Positions 35,956 to 43,245 of a DNA stretch of 49,807 nt are shown one piece after another. The notes under the pieces were generated by a model. That model was not told where the DNA came from and searched no databases. It worked only from the letters and a program-made list of their open reading frames with translations. How positions within the stretch are numbered: position 1 is the stretch's first letter; each line of letters starts with the position of its first letter. The stretch is from a virus: the IMG/VR virus record IMGVR_UViG_3300031974_000668, positions 1 to 49,807 of that record, one strand, 5' to 3'. Both the position numbers and the translations under genes were made by a program.

Positions 35956-35984
35956 GGGAGGCTTAATCGGCCTCCCTTTTTTTT
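35956..35984 (+). terminator. Strong terminator ending the late arm
   Basis: GGGAGGC (35956-35962) pairs with GCCTCCC (35970-35976), with a 7-base loop and then eight T (35977-35984). It lies between convergent genes. The nrdA stop codon is inside the T run, so the - strand transcript runs into the same element, although its own T tract is weak. Confidence 0.85.
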
Positions 35985-37677
35985 ATCCATCACAGGCCAC
36001 GCAGTCTTCCATAGCTTTAGAAGCTATATCCCCACGTAGTACTGATTCAGTCCTCATATAATATAAAGTTTTAATTCCTTTTTTCCAAGCGTCTAAATGA
36101 ACTTGATTAATCCATTTAGGGGAAGCTTCACTAGGAAAAGCTAAATTTAAACTAACAGACTGATCTATATATTGCTGGCGTATACCAGCTTGTCTTACTA
36201 ATTCTAGCTGATTTATTTCTTTAAACGTTTTAAATACTTCTTTAGTATCATCGTCTAATTCTTTTATATCTTGAACAGATCCACCATCTGCTAAAATTTT
36301 ATCCCATGTTTCTTTAGTATTTATACCTATGTCTTCTAATACTTTAACTAACGTAGGATTTTTTCTTATGAACGTACCTTTTGCTGATTGCTCTGTAAAA
36401 ACATTTGCTGCCCACGGTTCAATCCCGGGAGAGATATTCCCAGCAAGCTTGCTATTAGATACAGTGGGAGCAATAGCACGTAAATGGGTATTGCGAAAGC
36501 CAGTACCGACACACCAAAGAGGTTCTCCATAAACGTCAGCAAGAGCCATTGAAGCTCTTTCAGACTCGATTTTAATTTGACTAAAAATTCTTCTTGTTTC
36601 ATATTGCGCTAATAAACCTTCAAATGGTAAACCTTTTTCTTGTAAATATGTATGCCAACCAAGTACACCAAGACCTAATGCTCTACCTTTTTCAGCAGAT
36701 CTTACAGAATTTTCAAAACCTTTTCTGTATTTAGCTCTTTGTATAAACTCCTCAAGCACTCCATCAAGAAACCATATTGAATCATAAATGATATTTGTAT
36801 TTTTCCACTCGTCATATTTAGCTAGGTTTAAGCTAGATAGACAACAAACGAATGAATGATTTTCATCTGTGTGTAATGTTATTTCACTACAGATATTTGT
36901 CATATGTACTTTTAAAGCGTTGTCTTTGTAAGCTTTTGGATTTTGTTTGTTAGTGTTACCTTTAAAAAGTATATAAGGTTCTCCAGTCGCTTTACGTTTT
37001 TGTAATAGCTTTCCCCACTTCTTTCTAGCTTCTGTATCGCCAGCTTCAAGTCTTCGCATGAATTTATCGCCGACGACAGCGCATTGATGTAAGTTAAGCG
37101 ATTGTCTGTTAATGTCTCCTTTAGGTTCTCTAATCTCGAGCCACTCCTCAAAATCGGGGTGGTCAATGTTAATGTTAACTGATGCAGCTCCTCGTCTGAC
37201 AGATCCTTGATTAGTGGCAAGTATTGTGCTATCGTATATTTTACAAAAAGGCACAACTCCGTCGCTTGTTCCATTACCTGTTATTTTAGCACCGGCGGGT
37301 CTGATTTGATTTATACCGATGCCAACTCCACCGCCGTGTTTAGCGAGCAACATCATCTCTAAATTTTTCTGTCCTATGTCAATGATACTATCAGCCACAT
37401 CAATACCGAAACAGCTAATAGGCAAACCGCGATCAGTACCTGTGTTAGATAATACAGGGCTAGCGAGACACAACCATCCTTTCCATATGTACTCAAAAAA
37501 GACATCAGCCATTTCAGGTTTAAATAACCTTTTAGCAACAGTCTTTGAAACTCTTTGGTAAGCCTCTTTAGGAGTTTCACCATTATATAAATAACCTCCA
37601 CCTATTGTTTTTTTATATACTTCGTTATCACCCCAATCAGGATAATCAATCCCCTTTTTCCATTGATTGTTCCACAT
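35983..37677 (-). CDS. nrdA: Class I ribonucleotide reductase, large subunit
   Basis: The 564-residue protein reduces ribonucleoside diphosphates to deoxy forms for phage DNA synthesis. Active-site residues are present: Cys89 in ISCFGID, Asn261-Cys263-Glu265 in NICSEITLH, Cys278/279 in FVCCLSSLNL, the Tyr pair in KTLYYMRTES, and a C-terminal CxxC (EDCVACDG) for re-reduction. There is no N-terminal ATP-cone, so it should lack dATP feedback inhibition, which is common in phage enzymes. It is short compared with cellular NrdA (about 760). It overlaps the small gene upstream by 32 bases. Some internal stretches (for example 37021-37260) are about 43 % G+C, above the local background. Confidence 0.9.
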   Translation of the reverse strand: MWNNQWKKGIDYPDWGDNEVYKKTIGGGYLYNGETPKEAYQRVSKTVAKRLFKPEMADVFFEYIWKGWLCLASPVLSNTGTDRGLPISCFGIDVADSIIDIGQKNLEMMLLAKHGGGVGIGINQIRPAGAKITGNGTSDGVVPFCKIYDSTILATNQGSVRRGAASVNINIDHPDFEEWLEIREPKGDINRQSLNLHQCAVVGDKFMRRLEAGDTEARKKWGKLLQKRKATGEPYILFKGNTNKQNPKAYKDNALKVHMTNICSEITLHTDENHSFVCCLSSLNLAKYDEWKNTNIIYDSIWFLDGVLEEFIQRAKYRKGFENSVRSAEKGRALGLGVLGWHTYLQEKGLPFEGLLAQYETRRIFSQIKIESERASMALADVYGEPLWCVGTGFRNTHLRAIAPTVSNSKLAGNISPGIEPWAANVFTEQSAKGTFIRKNPTLVKVLEDIGINTKETWDKILADGGSVQDIKELDDDTKEVFKTFKEINQLELVRQAGIRQQYIDQSVSLNLAFPSEASPKWINQVHLDAWKKGIKTLYYMRTESVLRGDIASKAMEDCVACDG

Positions 37678-37884: not shown

Positions 37885-38853
37885 CTACCAAATATCTTCA
37901 AAGTCTTCGTTTTCATTTGCTTTACTATAGTCTGTCGGTCTAATTGCGAAAAAATCTGTATGGGTGTGACCGCCAGTAAGATGATAAAACCAATCAAGTA
38001 CAGCAGCGCTATCTCTATCAAAGCTAAAGAAGCGTCTTTTATCTGTATAACCAAGCTCCATAAGTTTTTCATTTGTTCTTTTTCTTATAAATTGTTTTAA
38101 ATCGTTTGCCTTAAGGTTTTCAATATCACCCATCTCAAACATTTTATCTATATATTTTTCTTCAAGATCAACCATGATCTTAGCTGCTTTATAAATATCT
38201 TCTTTACAGTCTTCTTTCAGTGTAGGTATTTCTTCACACATGTGTCTAAATAATTGACAACCCATTTTACTATGTAACGACTCATCTCTTACAGACCATT
38301 TCATTTGTTGACCTATTCCTTTGAGTAGATTACGTAATTGAAAAGAGTATAAAACAGCGAAAGCACTATATAAACTAACACCCTCTGCGAAAGCGGAAAA
38401 GATTGCCAAGCTACGACCGATGCCCACAGGATCATCGCCGTCATAAGCAACCAAGTTGTCAAAGCGTTCCGACGTTGCAGGTTCGTGAAGAAACGCCTCA
38501 AAGTTTTCAAGTCCCAATGTTTCATTTAAATAACTATATGCAACAGCGTGTATTGTTTCTTGTGAGCCGAACATCATAGCCATCTGTTGCACTTCATGTT
38601 TTGGAAACCATGATACGACTTTTTGTGTCCAATAATCTGACACCGCACATTCTGTTTGTGCAAACCCTAATAGTATATTACCAACTAAATTTTTCTCAGC
38701 GTCAGTAAGCTTTTCGTTCCAGTCTTTAACATCACCTGACATAGGTATTTCTGTATGCAACCAAAATGCTTGCGCCTGTTTTAACCAACCCTCAGTATAA
38801 TATATTGGATATTCAAAAGGTTTATAAGGTATTCTTTCTTTAAATAAACTCAT
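37885..38853 (-). CDS. nrdB: Class I ribonucleotide reductase, small (radical) subunit
   Basis: The ATG at 38853 gives 322 residues, preceded by an A/T-rich leader. The earlier frame begins with TTG. Metal-binding residues are visible: Glu68 in AQTECAV, Glu99 and His102 in SQETIHAVAY, Glu157 in FAEGVS, and Glu191 and His194 in DESLHSK. Tyr106, four residues after the His, matches the radical tyrosine position. The first ligand is Glu where E. coli has Asp84. The C-terminus (NENEDFEDIW) provides the tail that docks on NrdA. The stretch 38401-38520 is 50 % G+C by count, above the local average. It works with NrdA two genes downstream. Confidence 0.88.
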   Translation of the reverse strand: MSLFKERIPYKPFEYPIYYTEGWLKQAQAFWLHTEIPMSGDVKDWNEKLTDAEKNLVGNILLGFAQTECAVSDYWTQKVVSWFPKHEVQQMAMMFGSQETIHAVAYSYLNETLGLENFEAFLHEPATSERFDNLVAYDGDDPVGIGRSLAIFSAFAEGVSLYSAFAVLYSFQLRNLLKGIGQQMKWSVRDESLHSKMGCQLFRHMCEEIPTLKEDCKEDIYKAAKIMVDLEEKYIDKMFEMGDIENLKANDLKQFIRKRTNEKLMELGYTDKRRFFSFDRDSAAVLDWFYHLTGGHTHTDFFAIRPTDYSKANENEDFEDIW

Positions 38854-38854
38854 T

Positions 38855-39004
38855 TTAATTATAAGGCATTTCAAATGCTATATCTACAAACGGTAGATAA
38901 AACACATAAGTTAATCGATCTTGTTCTTCATAGGCTCTTGCTCCGAATAATATACCCGGATAAAAACCTACAGACAAAGACCAGTTCCATTTTTCTTTAT
39001 CCAT
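38855..39004 (-). CDS. Conserved 49-residue phage protein
   Basis: The ATG at 39004 gives a small aromatic-rich protein (MDKEKWNWSLSVGFYPGILF, then GARAYEEQDRLTYVFYLPFV). I recall closely similar small proteins from many marine phages, always near nucleotide-metabolism genes, with no assigned function. Its first 8 bases overlap the end of the gene upstream, and it ends one base before nrdB, so it is part of the same operon. It is probably membrane-associated or a small regulator. Confidence 0.58.
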   Translation of the reverse strand: MDKEKWNWSLSVGFYPGILFGARAYEEQDRLTYVFYLPFVDIAFEMPYN

Positions 39005-39170
39005 AAACTTTAATATTGTATTGGTCTTGATAACCAACTAATTCTTTATATTTTATTTTTCCTCTTTGCTCCCACGACCATTTAACCCACTTGTCAATTT
39101 GTCGCTCAGCATATTTTTTCCTAGCTATTATTTTCGCAAGCTTAGGATTAACTCTATTACTCTGTCGCAT
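38997..39170 (-). CDS. Unknown 57-residue basic protein
   Basis: The frame starts at the ATG in the end of the endonuclease gene (43-base overlap) and runs to a TAA at 38997-38999, which overlaps the start of the next gene by eight bases (ATGGATAA). The product is basic and Trp-rich (MRQSNRVNPKLAKIIARKKY, AERQIDKWVKWSWEQRGKIK). The tight junctions at both ends support translation. No family recognised. Confidence 0.6.
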   Translation of the reverse strand: MRQSNRVNPKLAKIIARKKYAERQIDKWVKWSWEQRGKIKYKELVGYQDQYNIKVYG

Positions 39171-39580
39171 TCTTTTTGATTTTGTGGCTTATATAATCTA
39201 TGATACAATTTGTTATCAACTAAATATTTTTTAAATAATTTCCAGCGTAATGGAAAAGACTCGTTAGCTCTACCTTTACATTCAATTATAAAGTCTTTAC
39301 CAACAAAGTCTGGAGTGTATTTAATTGGTAGTATTTTTTTACCACCGCGTTGTTTAAATTCTCCTTTACCATTAGCCGTTCTTTCATGTGATGGATTTAT
39401 AAAATTAAATCCAGAAACTACTTCATAAGTTTGACCCTCGTATTTAGCTTTTATTTTAGCTTTTTTTAAAGCCATATACATATAACGCTCAAGACCTGAA
39501 GCAAATTTGATACCGTCATACGTTACCTTTTTTGCTTGTACAGGTCCGCGTTTTCTTTTTTTATAGATCTTCTTCTTCAT
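39128..39580 (-). CDS. PD-(D/E)XK endonuclease (T7 endonuclease I / DUF1064-like)
   Basis: The start at the ATG 39580 gives 150 residues. Another ATG at 39595 would add five. The fold signature is present: Glu31 in FASGLERYMY, Asp91 in YTPDFVG, and Glu100-Cys-Lys102 in IIECKGR. This is a PD-(D/E)XK nuclease resembling the small phage family of Holliday-junction or host-DNA-degrading nucleases. It probably resolves branched replication intermediates before packaging or degrades host DNA. It overlaps the gene upstream by 20 bases. It also has a very basic N-terminus (MKKKIYKKRKRGPVQ). Confidence 0.68.
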   Translation of the reverse strand: MKKKIYKKRKRGPVQAKKVTYDGIKFASGLERYMYMALKKAKIKAKYEGQTYEVVSGFNFINPSHERTANGKGEFKQRGGKKILPIKYTPDFVGKDFIIECKGRANESFPLRWKLFKKYLVDNKLYHRLYKPQNQKECDRVIELILSLRK

Positions 39581-39866
39581 AATGTAATCCGTCATTACCG
39601 TTTTGACCTATAATATTCATACGGTTTAACATTGCTTCCTCAACTTCATCACGCAAGCAAGCTCTTGCTGCTTGTATGTATAACAATGCATCCATTATTT
39701 CTTCTTGCACATCGATTAGAAAGTCGTTTAAGTCTTTGTCTTTGCCTTCAACTTCTTCCATCATCATTGCACCGTACTTAGCTTGACCAATCAGACTACG
39801 TTGATCTATCTTTTCGATTACTTGTTGTACGATTTTATCGTCTGTTTTTACTACGTAATTACTCAT
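39561..39866 (-). CDS. MazG-like nucleotide pyrophosphohydrolase (small)
   Basis: The 101-residue helical protein has the pattern RSLIGQAKYGAMMM, then NDFLIDVQEEIMDALLYIQA. The EExxDA segment matches the metal-binding helix of all-alpha NTP pyrophosphohydrolases (MazG/dATP-dGTP pyrophosphohydrolase group). Such enzymes remove unwanted dNTPs or (p)ppGpp-type signals. It overlaps the next MazG-containing gene by eight bases, so the phage encodes two members side by side. Activity is inferred. Confidence 0.5.
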   Translation of the reverse strand: MSNYVVKTDDKIVQQVIEKIDQRSLIGQAKYGAMMMEEVEGKDKDLNDFLIDVQEEIMDALLYIQAARACLRDEVEEAMLNRMNIIGQNGNDGLHYEEEDL

Positions 39867-40647
39867 CTTTTACAAATGTTCCGTTAATCATTTTACCTGT
39901 TCGTTTGCTAATAACTTTATAAGCACTGTTTATACAGTCTTCTATAGTAACTCCTTGTAAATGAGCTAGGTTTGTTAATACAACAACCATGTCGCCAATA
40001 GCATCTATAACTTCTGGTTTATCATCTTTTAACAATGCTTTAGCTAGCTCACCAGCTTCTTCTTGAAGTTTAACATATTGCGTGTGGCTGTTGCCTTTAC
40101 TATACAAACCTCTTTGTTCTGCCCAGTCTCTTATTTTACTAAACATATCGCTGTCAGTTATATTTGGCTTTTCATCTAACTGATCTTCACTCCATAGCTC
40201 AGGTGTTTTAAACCACTCAGCAAAAGCTTTATTATATACATAGCATCTATTATCGTTGAACATAGAAGTTTTAACGTTCTTCATTATCCAACGAATAGAA
40301 TCTAAATTAAGTACAAACTCACCGTGTTCTGACTTCCATTCAAATCCTATATTATCCATTAAATTACCTTTTAGTTTTTTAATTGGATAAGGAAACGTAG
40401 TGGTTTGTTCTGTTACGTTTATATTCATTTTATTTAATTTAACTAATTCATTATATTTTTTACGATCAACTTTATAGCCATAAGACTTTTGAAGTTCTAT
40501 CTCTTTCTCTGATATATAATCTATATCATCGGACTGATCAAGAACTTCATATTCGTCTGGGCCATAACCCTGTGTTAACGTAACTCTGTTATTAAGATTA
40601 CATGTAACACCGATCTTTTTACCCGGAATGTGATATAAATAATACAT
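39859..40647 (-). CDS. Fusion of a GIY-YIG-like domain and MazG pyrophosphohydrolase
   Basis: In the 262-residue protein, residues 1-75 resemble a degenerate GIY-YIG nuclease domain (MYYLYHIPGKKIGVTCNLNN; EKEIELQKSYGYKVD). The C-terminal 95 residues carry the MazG core: KLQEEAGELAKALL with Glu196, Glu197 and Glu200, then EVIDAIGDMVVVL with Asp215 and Asp219. Between them is an uncharacterised region of about 90 residues. MazG hydrolyses (d)NTPs or alarmones. Whether the N-terminal part cuts DNA is doubtful, because the usual catalytic Arg and Glu pattern is incomplete. Start and stop overlap both neighbours. Confidence 0.58.
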   Translation of the reverse strand: MYYLYHIPGKKIGVTCNLNNRVTLTQGYGPDEYEVLDQSDDIDYISEKEIELQKSYGYKVDRKKYNELVKLNKMNINVTEQTTTFPYPIKKLKGNLMDNIGFEWKSEHGEFVLNLDSIRWIMKNVKTSMFNDNRCYVYNKAFAEWFKTPELWSEDQLDEKPNITDSDMFSKIRDWAEQRGLYSKGNSHTQYVKLQEEAGELAKALLKDDKPEVIDAIGDMVVVLTNLAHLQGVTIEDCINSAYKVISKRTGKMINGTFVKDE

Positions 40648-41288
40648 TATATTTTATCGTTATATAAATGTAAGTTGTGTGCATAATGATAATATTCACC
40701 AACTTTAATATCTAATCTGTCTGCAACTAATTTTTGTATCATACTAAAACAGTACTGGTCATTGCAGAAACCGTACCAGAGATCATTAGAACGCATTAAA
40801 ACAGCCATGTTTAATCTATTGTTAACAATTGTAAATTGTATCGCGTAAGTACATGGAGTATCTTTGCTATAAAACTTATGTTCTTTAGCGTCATATATAC
40901 TAATTGCTGCGTGTCTAGTATCTTTTTCATGTCTAAGCTTAGCTACAACATAATCCAATTGATCGTTGCGATACATTTGCCAACCGTAATTAGAATTGAC
41001 ACATCTTTCACTGTCAGCCATACGTTCCCATATTGGTGGTACTTTACCGTATATTTCACCAAGCTTGTCAATACTAGGATCACCGGATAAATACCACTGC
41101 CATTCAGCTTCAGCATAATCAGGTTTCCAATTACGTTCTTTATTAAATATATAATTTTCTAATGGGTTTTCTAGTGTAAACCCTACATTAAATAAAGCTT
41201 TAGTATTACCAAAAGGTATACCATCAACTATAATCTTGTCAAGAAAATAATTGTAAGCTTCGTCTGCATTATGAAATTTTCTGCGCAT
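40647..41288 (-). CDS. Thymidylate synthase-family enzyme, Asp at base-recognition position
   Basis: The ATG at 41288 gives 213 residues. With this start, residue numbers coincide with E. coli ThyA landmarks: Cys146 (DTPCTYAIQF), Arg166-Ser167 and Asp169 (LMRSNDLWYG), His207 and Tyr209 (HNLHLYN). The residue at the place of Asn177 is Asp (GFCNDQYC). Asp there is the mark of dCMP hydroxymethylases, while thymidylate synthases use Asn. The enzyme therefore may act on dCMP rather than dUMP, to make 5-hydroxymethyl or methyl deoxycytidylate. A longer start at 41348 would overlap the upstream gene by 80 bases and is less likely. Family membership is confident, substrate is not. Confidence 0.72.
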   Translation of the reverse strand: MRRKFHNADEAYNYFLDKIIVDGIPFGNTKALFNVGFTLENPLENYIFNKERNWKPDYAEAEWQWYLSGDPSIDKLGEIYGKVPPIWERMADSERCVNSNYGWQMYRNDQLDYVVAKLRHEKDTRHAAISIYDAKEHKFYSKDTPCTYAIQFTIVNNRLNMAVLMRSNDLWYGFCNDQYCFSMIQKLVADRLDIKVGEYYHYAHNLHLYNDKI

Positions 41289-41523
41289 ATTTTTTATAAT
41301 AATATTTATAGTACTCGTACATTTGAATCCATATTGATACTGGACCATATGTTAACGGTGATCTATTGTTTTTATTGTTTATCTTTATATCAATGTACCA
41401 AGCTCCTTCTCCATTCGCAAATGGGGATATATATATTCCGTTGTTTATACACCACCTGTACGCTTCCATTTCCTGCGTAGTAGGCATATATTGTCCCATT
41501 ACATCTTTCTTTTTTCGTGGCAT
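41269..41523 (-). CDS. Unknown 84-residue aromatic-rich protein
   Basis: The protein starts MPRKKKDVMGQYMPTTQEME and is rich in Tyr, Trp and Ile (AYRWCINNGIYISPF; IWIQMYEYYKYYYKK). It has no signal peptide or helix-turn-helix that I can see. It lies between primase-helicase and the ThyA-like gene, ends 20 bases inside the latter, and starts directly next to the helicase stop. I recall similar small proteins in flavobacterial phages but know no function. Confidence 0.52.
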   Translation of the reverse strand: MPRKKKDVMGQYMPTTQEMEAYRWCINNGIYISPFANGEGAWYIDIKINNKNNRSPLTYGPVSIWIQMYEYYKYYYKKYAQKIS

Positions 41524-43245
41524 TTATTCCCAAGGCATTGGTTCTTCTTTAATCTGATCTACTATATGTGGTATGAATGAACCTGAATTTGGCTCCCATT
41601 TAAAATGACACTCAGCACCGTTTTCGCCGAGATTTTGAAACTTAACTTTAAGGACTTTTGCCTTGACAGTCTTTGCATCATAATCGCGGTGTACGAGAAT
41701 GCCATGATAACTCGCGTCATACCATTCACCTCCCCCTTTAATATTGTACATGTTCGGTTCTTCGATTTGTCCATCTTTATCTTTATACATTTTAGTAGGA
41801 TGTGCTACAATAAACACAAGCACATCAAACTTTTTAGCAAAGTTTTCTATCTTAGTTAGGTATTCCATGGTATATGTATTAACATCTAACGAGCTAGCAT
41901 TTTTATCTCTAACTTTATTAAAAGGATCAATAACTAAACATTTAATACCCTTACGTTTAACAAGTTCTGCGCCTTTACGCAGCACTGATTCAAGACTATA
42001 CTTATCCATGTCTATAAAAAAGAAATTATCATTTACATGATCTGCTACTTCTTTCCATTTATCTGTATCTATATCATCTACGTTTGGCATATTACCCCAT
42101 ACTTTACGCATTAACTTGTGTGCATGTAAATAGTTTGGAGTATTTTCTGGTGATGCAAATCCTGTTTTCCAGCCATAATTTTTATTATAGCCTACACACA
42201 TTTGATCTACAAAATCTGACTTGCCACTACTAGGTATCCCAGTAACAGTAATGAACTGACCAGTATAAGTTGAAAAAATACTATCAAAGTTGGGTAAACC
42301 AACTTGATAACCTGGCTTGAATCCATTTTTAACAAAGTCCTTAACGTCTCCCTCGATGTCTTTAAATGTTGTGACATTTTCCAAAGGATATGCTTTTGCT
42401 TTGTCAATCGCTTGCTTAAGTTTTTCTTTGCCATATTTTATTAAGTATTCATTAGCATCTTTACAGTCTTCAAAGTCTACAAGAAAACAAGCTTCAGCAC
42501 CTAGTCTACGAACAAACTCTGTACGTAGTGCTATACCAGGAGCATCAGTATCTAACGCTAATATAATTTGTTTTTTATCTTCAAAATAATCTATACAATT
42601 ATCTAGATAATCTAAGTTATTATGTGTTATTGTTGCGCCATTAGGTACAGATACACAATTTTTAATACCCGCTTCGTGTAAAGCAAGTACATCCATTTCA
42701 CCTTCGGTTATAACACAATTATCATAACCTACTATGCTGTTAATATTATAAAATACTTTTTCAGCACCTTTGTATAGTTTAAAATTTTTACGGCCATCTC
42801 TATATTTTACATTAATAAGTTGATCGCCGACATAATAATTAAACTTTATAGTGTTCTCGGTCTTACCGGTTTGTGGCATATACTCAGGACCCTCACTGAT
42901 CTGAAGATCAATTAGGGTCCTAGTAGATATACCTCTAGTTTTAAACCACTCAGCTACTTTAGTACGAGGAATATTAAACTCCTCTTTTGGTGGATCAACT
43001 GGTCTAACGTATTCTTTATCAGTTGCTCCTTTACGTTGATACGTATGTAGTTGAAAAGTGGTGTCACAGTTGTGGCAAGTTCCAAGACCACGTTCCCAGT
43101 CGTATGAAGCACATTTCTTCTTACGGTTTTCGGGTTTTCTATCTTCAGAACAAAGAGGACATATGCCCTGTTTCTTCTGCTCTAGATTATATTGATTGAA
43201 CTGGTCAATAACAAATCCATTGATCTCGTATTGTTCTACTTGCAT
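41524..43245 (-). CDS. Primase-helicase, T7 gp4-like
   Basis: The 573-residue enzyme unwinds the fork and primes the lagging strand. An N-terminal zinc ribbon (Cys29, Cys32, Cys57, Cys60 in CPLC and CHNC) is followed by a TOPRIM primase with Glu181-Gly182 and Asp185 (ITEGEMDVLAL) and Asp232-Asp234 (ALDTDAPG). A DnaB-type helicase follows, with Walker A at 336-343 (GIPSSGKS), Walker B at 436-441 (CLVIDP) and a later VAHPTKM motif. All parts are in one chain as in T7. It stands next to SSB. No phage DNA polymerase has been found, so it may work with host Pol III or Pol I. Confidence 0.88.
   Translation of the reverse strand: MQVEQYEINGFVIDQFNQYNLEQKKQGICPLCSEDRKPENRKKKCASYDWERGLGTCHNCDTTFQLHTYQRKGATDKEYVRPVDPPKEEFNIPRTKVAEWFKTRGISTRTLIDLQISEGPEYMPQTGKTENTIKFNYYVGDQLINVKYRDGRKNFKLYKGAEKVFYNINSIVGYDNCVITEGEMDVLALHEAGIKNCVSVPNGATITHNNLDYLDNCIDYFEDKKQIILALDTDAPGIALRTEFVRRLGAEACFLVDFEDCKDANEYLIKYGKEKLKQAIDKAKAYPLENVTTFKDIEGDVKDFVKNGFKPGYQVGLPNFDSIFSTYTGQFITVTGIPSSGKSDFVDQMCVGYNKNYGWKTGFASPENTPNYLHAHKLMRKVWGNMPNVDDIDTDKWKEVADHVNDNFFFIDMDKYSLESVLRKGAELVKRKGIKCLVIDPFNKVRDKNASSLDVNTYTMEYLTKIENFAKKFDVLVFIVAHPTKMYKDKDGQIEEPNMYNIKGGGEWYDASYHGILVHRDYDAKTVKAKVLKVKFQNLGENGAECHFKWEPNSGSFIPHIVDQIKEEPMPWE

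Follow-up and report, generated by a model that had tools for sequence, protein, structure and literature searches.

A thymidylate synthase homolog that is very probably a T4 gp42-type dCMP 5-hydroxymethylase, encoded beside a MazG-family gene in a marine phage lineage

The locus described here raises the question of whether a phage gene labeled as a thymidylate synthase supplies dTMP or instead diverts dCMP toward a modified cytosine. It lies in a 49,807-nucleotide stretch of viral DNA (IMG/VR record IMGVR_UViG_3300031974_000668), referred to below as the window, and its family bears the PHROGs name thymidylate synthase. From Asp177 alone, the original prediction had proposed a possible dCMP hydroxymethylase and had left open whether a methyl or a hydroxymethyl group would be added. 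We conclude that the gene very probably encodes a dCMP 5-hydroxymethylase of the T4 gp42 type. The enzyme is of an already known kind; its carrier is a little-studied, widespread marine phage lineage.

Table 1. Hydroxymethylase gene and neighboring features of the window
Feature	Position	Strand	Basis or occurrence
Probable dCMP 5-hydroxymethylase, 213 aa	40647..41288	-	Pfam PF00303, PDB search, residues, AlphaFold
Proposed dCTPase: small T5orf172/GIY-YIG-like N-terminal domain followed by a PRA-PH/MazG pyrophosphohydrolase domain (~95 aa, C-terminal)	39859..40647	-	
Conserved 101-aa protein, no known function	39561..39866	-	76/80 relatives; second gene downstream in 75
DUF1064/Holliday-junction-resolvase-like protein	39128..39595	-	Third gene downstream in 75/80 relatives
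84-aa ORF, no known family, just upstream of hydroxymethylase	41269..41523	-	
Primase-helicase, upstream of cassette	41524..43245	-	
NrdA, large subunit of class I ribonucleotide reductase	35983..37677	-	
NrdB, small subunit of class I ribonucleotide reductase	37885..38874	-	

The minus-strand open frame, 40647-41348, could encode 233 residues, and a Met at 41288 gives a protein of 213; the shorter start is favored because its Met1 aligns with Met1 of a 53%-identical homolog (L116) from an environmental sister clade. The protein matches PF00303 at 8e-22 (78 bits; cut-off, 24.3). Given the Met at 41288, Cys146, Arg166, Ser167, Asp169, Asp177, His207, and Tyr209 carry exactly their E. coli ThyA numbers, as had been claimed, although the identical numbering is partly fortuitous because indels lie between these residues. 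Asp177 is real and not an alignment artifact, since residues 166 to 177 align without gaps to both E. coli ThyA and T4 gp42 and Asp is found at this position in 80/80 window-clade relatives, 80/80 sister-clade sequences, and 36/36 more distant ones. Other key residues are Glu62, Ser99/Tyr101, Arg125, Asp143, Thr147, and Asn168. A phage collection searched with half of the window DNA gave no match at the near-identity level, and a plasmid collection gave TS-like matches only, all below 60%.

Among solved structures, sequence searches placed hydroxymethylases nearest. T4 dCMP hydroxymethylase (4.6e-18) and the CMP hydroxymethylase MilA (7.8e-18) preceded the best thymidylate synthase (2.6e-11) in the PDB sequence search, and the same two were again at the top of a family-profile search. 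Structure prediction and comparison with gp42-type enzymes, proposed earlier as a check, bore out the assignment: an AlphaFold2 model computed from 66 aligned family members (pLDDT 96, pTM 0.91) confidently predicted a TS fold, and a Foldseek search with this model returned MilA first (TM 0.90), T4 dCMP hydroxymethylase at ranks 8 to 11, and thymidylate synthases lower. Class assignment from a maximum-likelihood tree of the TS superfamily was abandoned. T4 gp42, the RB69 type, and E. coli ThyA all sat on very long branches, and the position of T4 gp42 was unsupported; because the deep splits lacked support, residues and context served instead to define the class.

In T4, hydroxymethylation is marked by Asp179, for dCMP, by Asp145 at Cys-3, which activates the substrate water, by Ser94-x-Tyr96, which holds a second water, and by the absence of a C-terminal tail (PMC6400193), while positions 177 and 147 best separate the TS homologs of cytosine-modified and unmodified phage contigs (PMC8670742). 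The window protein has the whole T4 signature, namely Asp143 at Cys-3, S99-N-Y101, Asp177, and no C-terminal tail; 4 residues follow Tyr209, compared with 28 in T4 and 55 in E. coli ThyA, and the short end is a trait of the clade. In a focused alignment, E. coli ThyA has Leu at Cys-3, His147, and Asn177; the dUMP hydroxymethylases of SPO1, PhiW-14, and Ab20 have Asp, Asn147, and Asn177; and T4 gp42 has Asp, Thr147, and Asp177, as does the window protein. For PhiW-14, position 177 read as Ile in one large alignment and as Asn in the focused ones, and the focused reading was used. The large alignment also set a gap wrongly at E. coli 143, and the Cys-3 residue was therefore identified by counting back from the catalytic Cys. 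Asp at Cys-3, Thr147, and Ser167 are as invariant as Asp177 across the three sets of homologs, and the Ser-x-Tyr motif and the missing tail likewise extend to the 80 window-clade relatives and the 80 sister-clade sequences. It is therefore highly improbable that the gene supplies dTMP as an ordinary thymidylate synthase, or 5hm-dUMP as a dUMP 5-hydroxymethylase: the fold, the catalytic Cys, and the PHROGs name are shared with thymidylate synthase, but His147, Asn177, and the hydrophobic Leu143 of that enzyme and the Asn147/Asn177 of the compared dUMP enzymes are all replaced, the C-terminal tail required by thymidylate synthase is gone, and no thymine-hypermodification partner occurs among the annotated window genes.

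Asp177 alone cannot settle the chemistry, because the RB69-class enzyme also has both Asp177 and Thr147. RB69 ORF048c, long annotated as dCMP-hydroxymethylase-like, has almost the same sequence as PDB 9iqc, an entry whose title names a riboflavin-dependent monooxygenase, dCMP, and FAD; this Mosigvirus enzyme is described as a 5-hydroxy-dCMP synthase (PMC13390438). A flavin-dependent enzyme of this type would place OH directly on C5 of dCMP, and 9iqc, with the same TS fold, is a close match to our model (TM 0.87/0.80). However, it is only 20% identical to the window protein, and Glu at Cys-3, Val80, Gln168-Asn169, Val173, and Phe209, present in 9/9 examples of the class compared, are replaced in the window protein by Asp143, Trp80, Asn168-Asp169, Gly173, and Tyr209, like T4. 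We regard RB69-type chemistry as extremely unlikely. With none of the RB69-class residues and this low identity, the reading as a dCMP hydroxymethylase is firmer than it could be from Asp177 alone.

The residues held in common with T4 gp42 (PDB 1b49 and 6a9a) are E58, W80, S-N-Y, D at Cys-3, T147, S167, D169, G173, D177, H207, and Y209, in a background of 33% identity over 180 residues. One substitution counts against the T4-type reading: the second phosphate-binding Arg (E. coli Arg127) is His in the window protein, and in 78/80 relatives. MilA, the best structural match, likewise has Asp at 177 but carries Lys/Ala where deoxy-specific enzymes have Arg/Ser, the switch between ribose and deoxyribose substrates (PMC5175136), and it has an extra C-terminal helical domain. 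The window protein has Arg125 (not Lys) and Ser167 (not Ala), the marks of a deoxy substrate, in place of the Lys and Ala of MilA and BcmA.

Further evidence on the group added to dCMP comes from the sister clade and the annotated dCMP hydroxymethylases of BF503P2-type Bacteroides phages, which are 44-61% identical to the window protein and share its diagnostic residues and the motif FCNDQYCF. In 55 of 80 sister-clade loci, MazG and the hydroxymethylase are no more than 700 bp apart. Five of these loci encode a T4-type beta-glucosyltransferase (PF09198); L112, L113, L114, and L116, apparently near copies of a single virus type, show the order glucosyltransferase-MazG-hydroxymethylase, and the L116 MazG is 66% identical to that of the window. 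Eight other sister-clade loci and the cultured Bacteroides phage BF503P2 encode a carbamoyltransferase, a family of which a tested member carbamoylates 5hmC specifically (PMC8670742). The hydroxymethylases linked to these partners are 46-53% identical to the window protein. Both partners act on the hydroxymethyl group and therefore point to hydroxymethylation rather than methylation in this group of enzymes. BF503P2 itself carries two TS-superfamily paralogs with Asp177 (L002:12124-12930 and L002:15004-15684), the first of which carries Leu in place of Glu58 and may lack activity or have a different chemistry; a second TS paralog is also present in L092, L098, L101, L118, and L119.

A dCMP 5-methylase, that is, a TS-like enzyme switched to dCMP by Asp177 and making 5-methyl-dCMP, has a precedent in E. 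coli ThyA N177D, as this substitution in thymidylate synthase is reported to yield 5-methyl-dCMP (PMC8670742). Such an activity is nevertheless very unlikely here. Asp143 and the S-x-Y motif form a hydroxylation signature where thymidylate synthase has Leu143, the missing C-terminal tail is the element that seals the site for hydride transfer, no DHFR was found in 14 records, and the beta-glucosyltransferase and carbamoyltransferase of the sister clade need a hydroxyl. Of the two outcomes first entertained for the gene, the hydroxymethyl one is thus the better supported.

Gene order in the window clade is strict. The start codon of the PRA-PH/MazG gene overlaps the hydroxymethylase stop (TAATG), and this gene is the next one downstream in 80/80 window-clade loci. 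Of the two adjacent MazG-type genes originally described, this one is genuine, with an intact EExxE...ExxD motif; the gene for the 101-aa protein has no Pfam MazG match. Upstream of the hydroxymethylase, a family of ~90-aa ORFs, to which the 84-aa ORF of the window may belong, is found in 55/80 relatives. By fold, the MazG domain resembles MazG pyrophosphohydrolases, human dCTP pyrophosphatase, and the MazG-like enzyme of S-2L, all at modest E-values. Its substrate can be proposed by analogy, as T4 pairs its enzyme with a dCTP pyrophosphatase; a dCTPase role is plausible and is backed by the strict synteny. PF01503 beside a TS homolog is, in addition, one of the co-occurrences of modified contigs (PMC8670742).

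The first ~70 residues of the MazG protein adopt a beta-beta-alpha-beta-alpha arrangement and match T5orf172/MUG113 weakly. This compact domain (window:40437-40647, minus strand) has an invariant Tyr, Lys-x-Gly, Arg, and Glu and is tentatively assigned as GIY-YIG-like; it may act as a nuclease or bind DNA. The GIY-YIG proteins include T4 EndoII, a nuclease that cleaves unmodified DNA.

The earlier statement that no glycosyltransferase is visible holds for the GT1, GT2, and GT29 families in the 49.8-kb fragment, and neither beta-glucosyltransferase nor carbamoyltransferase homologs occur in the window clade, unlike some members of the sister clade. Models for GT1, GT2, ThyX, and DNMK (PF21448) had no match in 27 records (the window and relatives), nor did thymidylate kinase (PF02223), DNA polymerase A/B, dCMP deaminase, or DHFR in 14 (the window and 13 relatives). 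The absence of DHFR and ThyX was counted in favor of the hydroxymethylase reading, and the missing dNMP kinase and DNA polymerase A/B count against the T4-type one; all these absences are weak evidence, as the records, which come from uncultured viruses, may be incomplete. Phosphorylation of hm-dCMP in T4 depends on a phage-encoded kinase, which accompanies the hydroxymethylase without defining it. The window does encode a primase-helicase, a ligase, and an Erf-like annealing protein despite having no DNA polymerase A/B match.

From the predicted fold, the residues, the gene order, and their conservation, we infer an enzymatic activity, a dCTPase partner, and genomic 5hmC, according to the following model drawn from T4. 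Cys146 would attack C6 of dCMP while Asp177 would orient the base and protonate N3. Glu62 would activate methylene-tetrahydrofolate, whose carbon would pass to C5, and waters positioned by Asp143 and Ser99-x-Tyr101 would remove the proton from C5 and hydrate the exocyclic methylene; the products would be 5-hydroxymethyl-dCMP and tetrahydrofolate. The adjacent MazG protein, by analogy with gp56 of T4, probably hydrolyzes dCTP to dCMP, which would both remove the ordinary competitor and supply substrate. The 5-hydroxymethyl-dCMP would then be phosphorylated and incorporated into phage DNA; with no kinase or polymerase match, these steps would fall to the host or to unrecognized phage proteins. 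The presence of 5hmC in the phage DNA, in place of cytosine or together with it, is somewhat less certain than the identity of the enzyme.

A separate gene module was observed in 18-20 of the 80 relatives and is absent from the window. It comprises cupin, JmjC-like, and GT29 sialyltransferase-like genes with a small putative transferase and lies between nrdA and the lysis/structural genes (L226:8100-11987, on the contig of L023; also L017, L018, L020-L024, L026, L028, L030-L032, L040, L041, L048, L050, L063, and L073); KdsB-like and KdsA-like genes are also present in 11 of the module-bearing loci. We interpret it as a module for CMP-ulosonate synthesis and transfer beside the ribonucleotide reductase/hydroxymethylase cluster. 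That it decorates the 5hmC of phage DNA with an acidic sugar resembling Kdo or sialic acid is conceivable but unlikely, and a role in surface glycans is at least as likely; the papers found contain no report of a sugar of this type on 5hmC.

Relatives of the enzyme are encoded in at least several hundred IMG/VR stretches, and among phages with named hosts the terminase is nearest to those of Flavobacterium and Cellulophaga. A GroES-like co-chaperonin gene adjoins the terminase (window:3339-3938, plus strand), and a thioredoxin-like gene (PF00085; window:33560-33958, plus strand) may donate electrons to the phage ribonucleotide reductase. One 77-kb contig (G004, containing L007 and L013) encodes the hydroxymethylase twice, at 87% and 77% identity to the window protein, perhaps reflecting a chimeric assembly or a real duplication. 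Another (G026, containing L082) has two equal-scoring hydroxymethylase matches ~67.5 kb apart near both ends, which suggests that the genome of this lineage measures ~67.5 kb and is nearly complete here, with terminal redundancy.

The residue comparison provides a key that splits phage "thymidylate synthases" into thymidylate synthases, dUMP-hydroxymethylases, dCMP-hydroxymethylases, and 5-hydroxy-dCMP synthases. If the assignment is correct, a widespread lineage of ocean phages would make cytosine-modified DNA with a compact kit consisting of a hydroxymethylase and a MazG enzyme. Such 5hmC would probably serve the evasion of host defenses, a known strategy, and would affect restriction and CRISPR sensitivity, the efficiency of sequencing, and the tally of phage types with noncanonical DNA.
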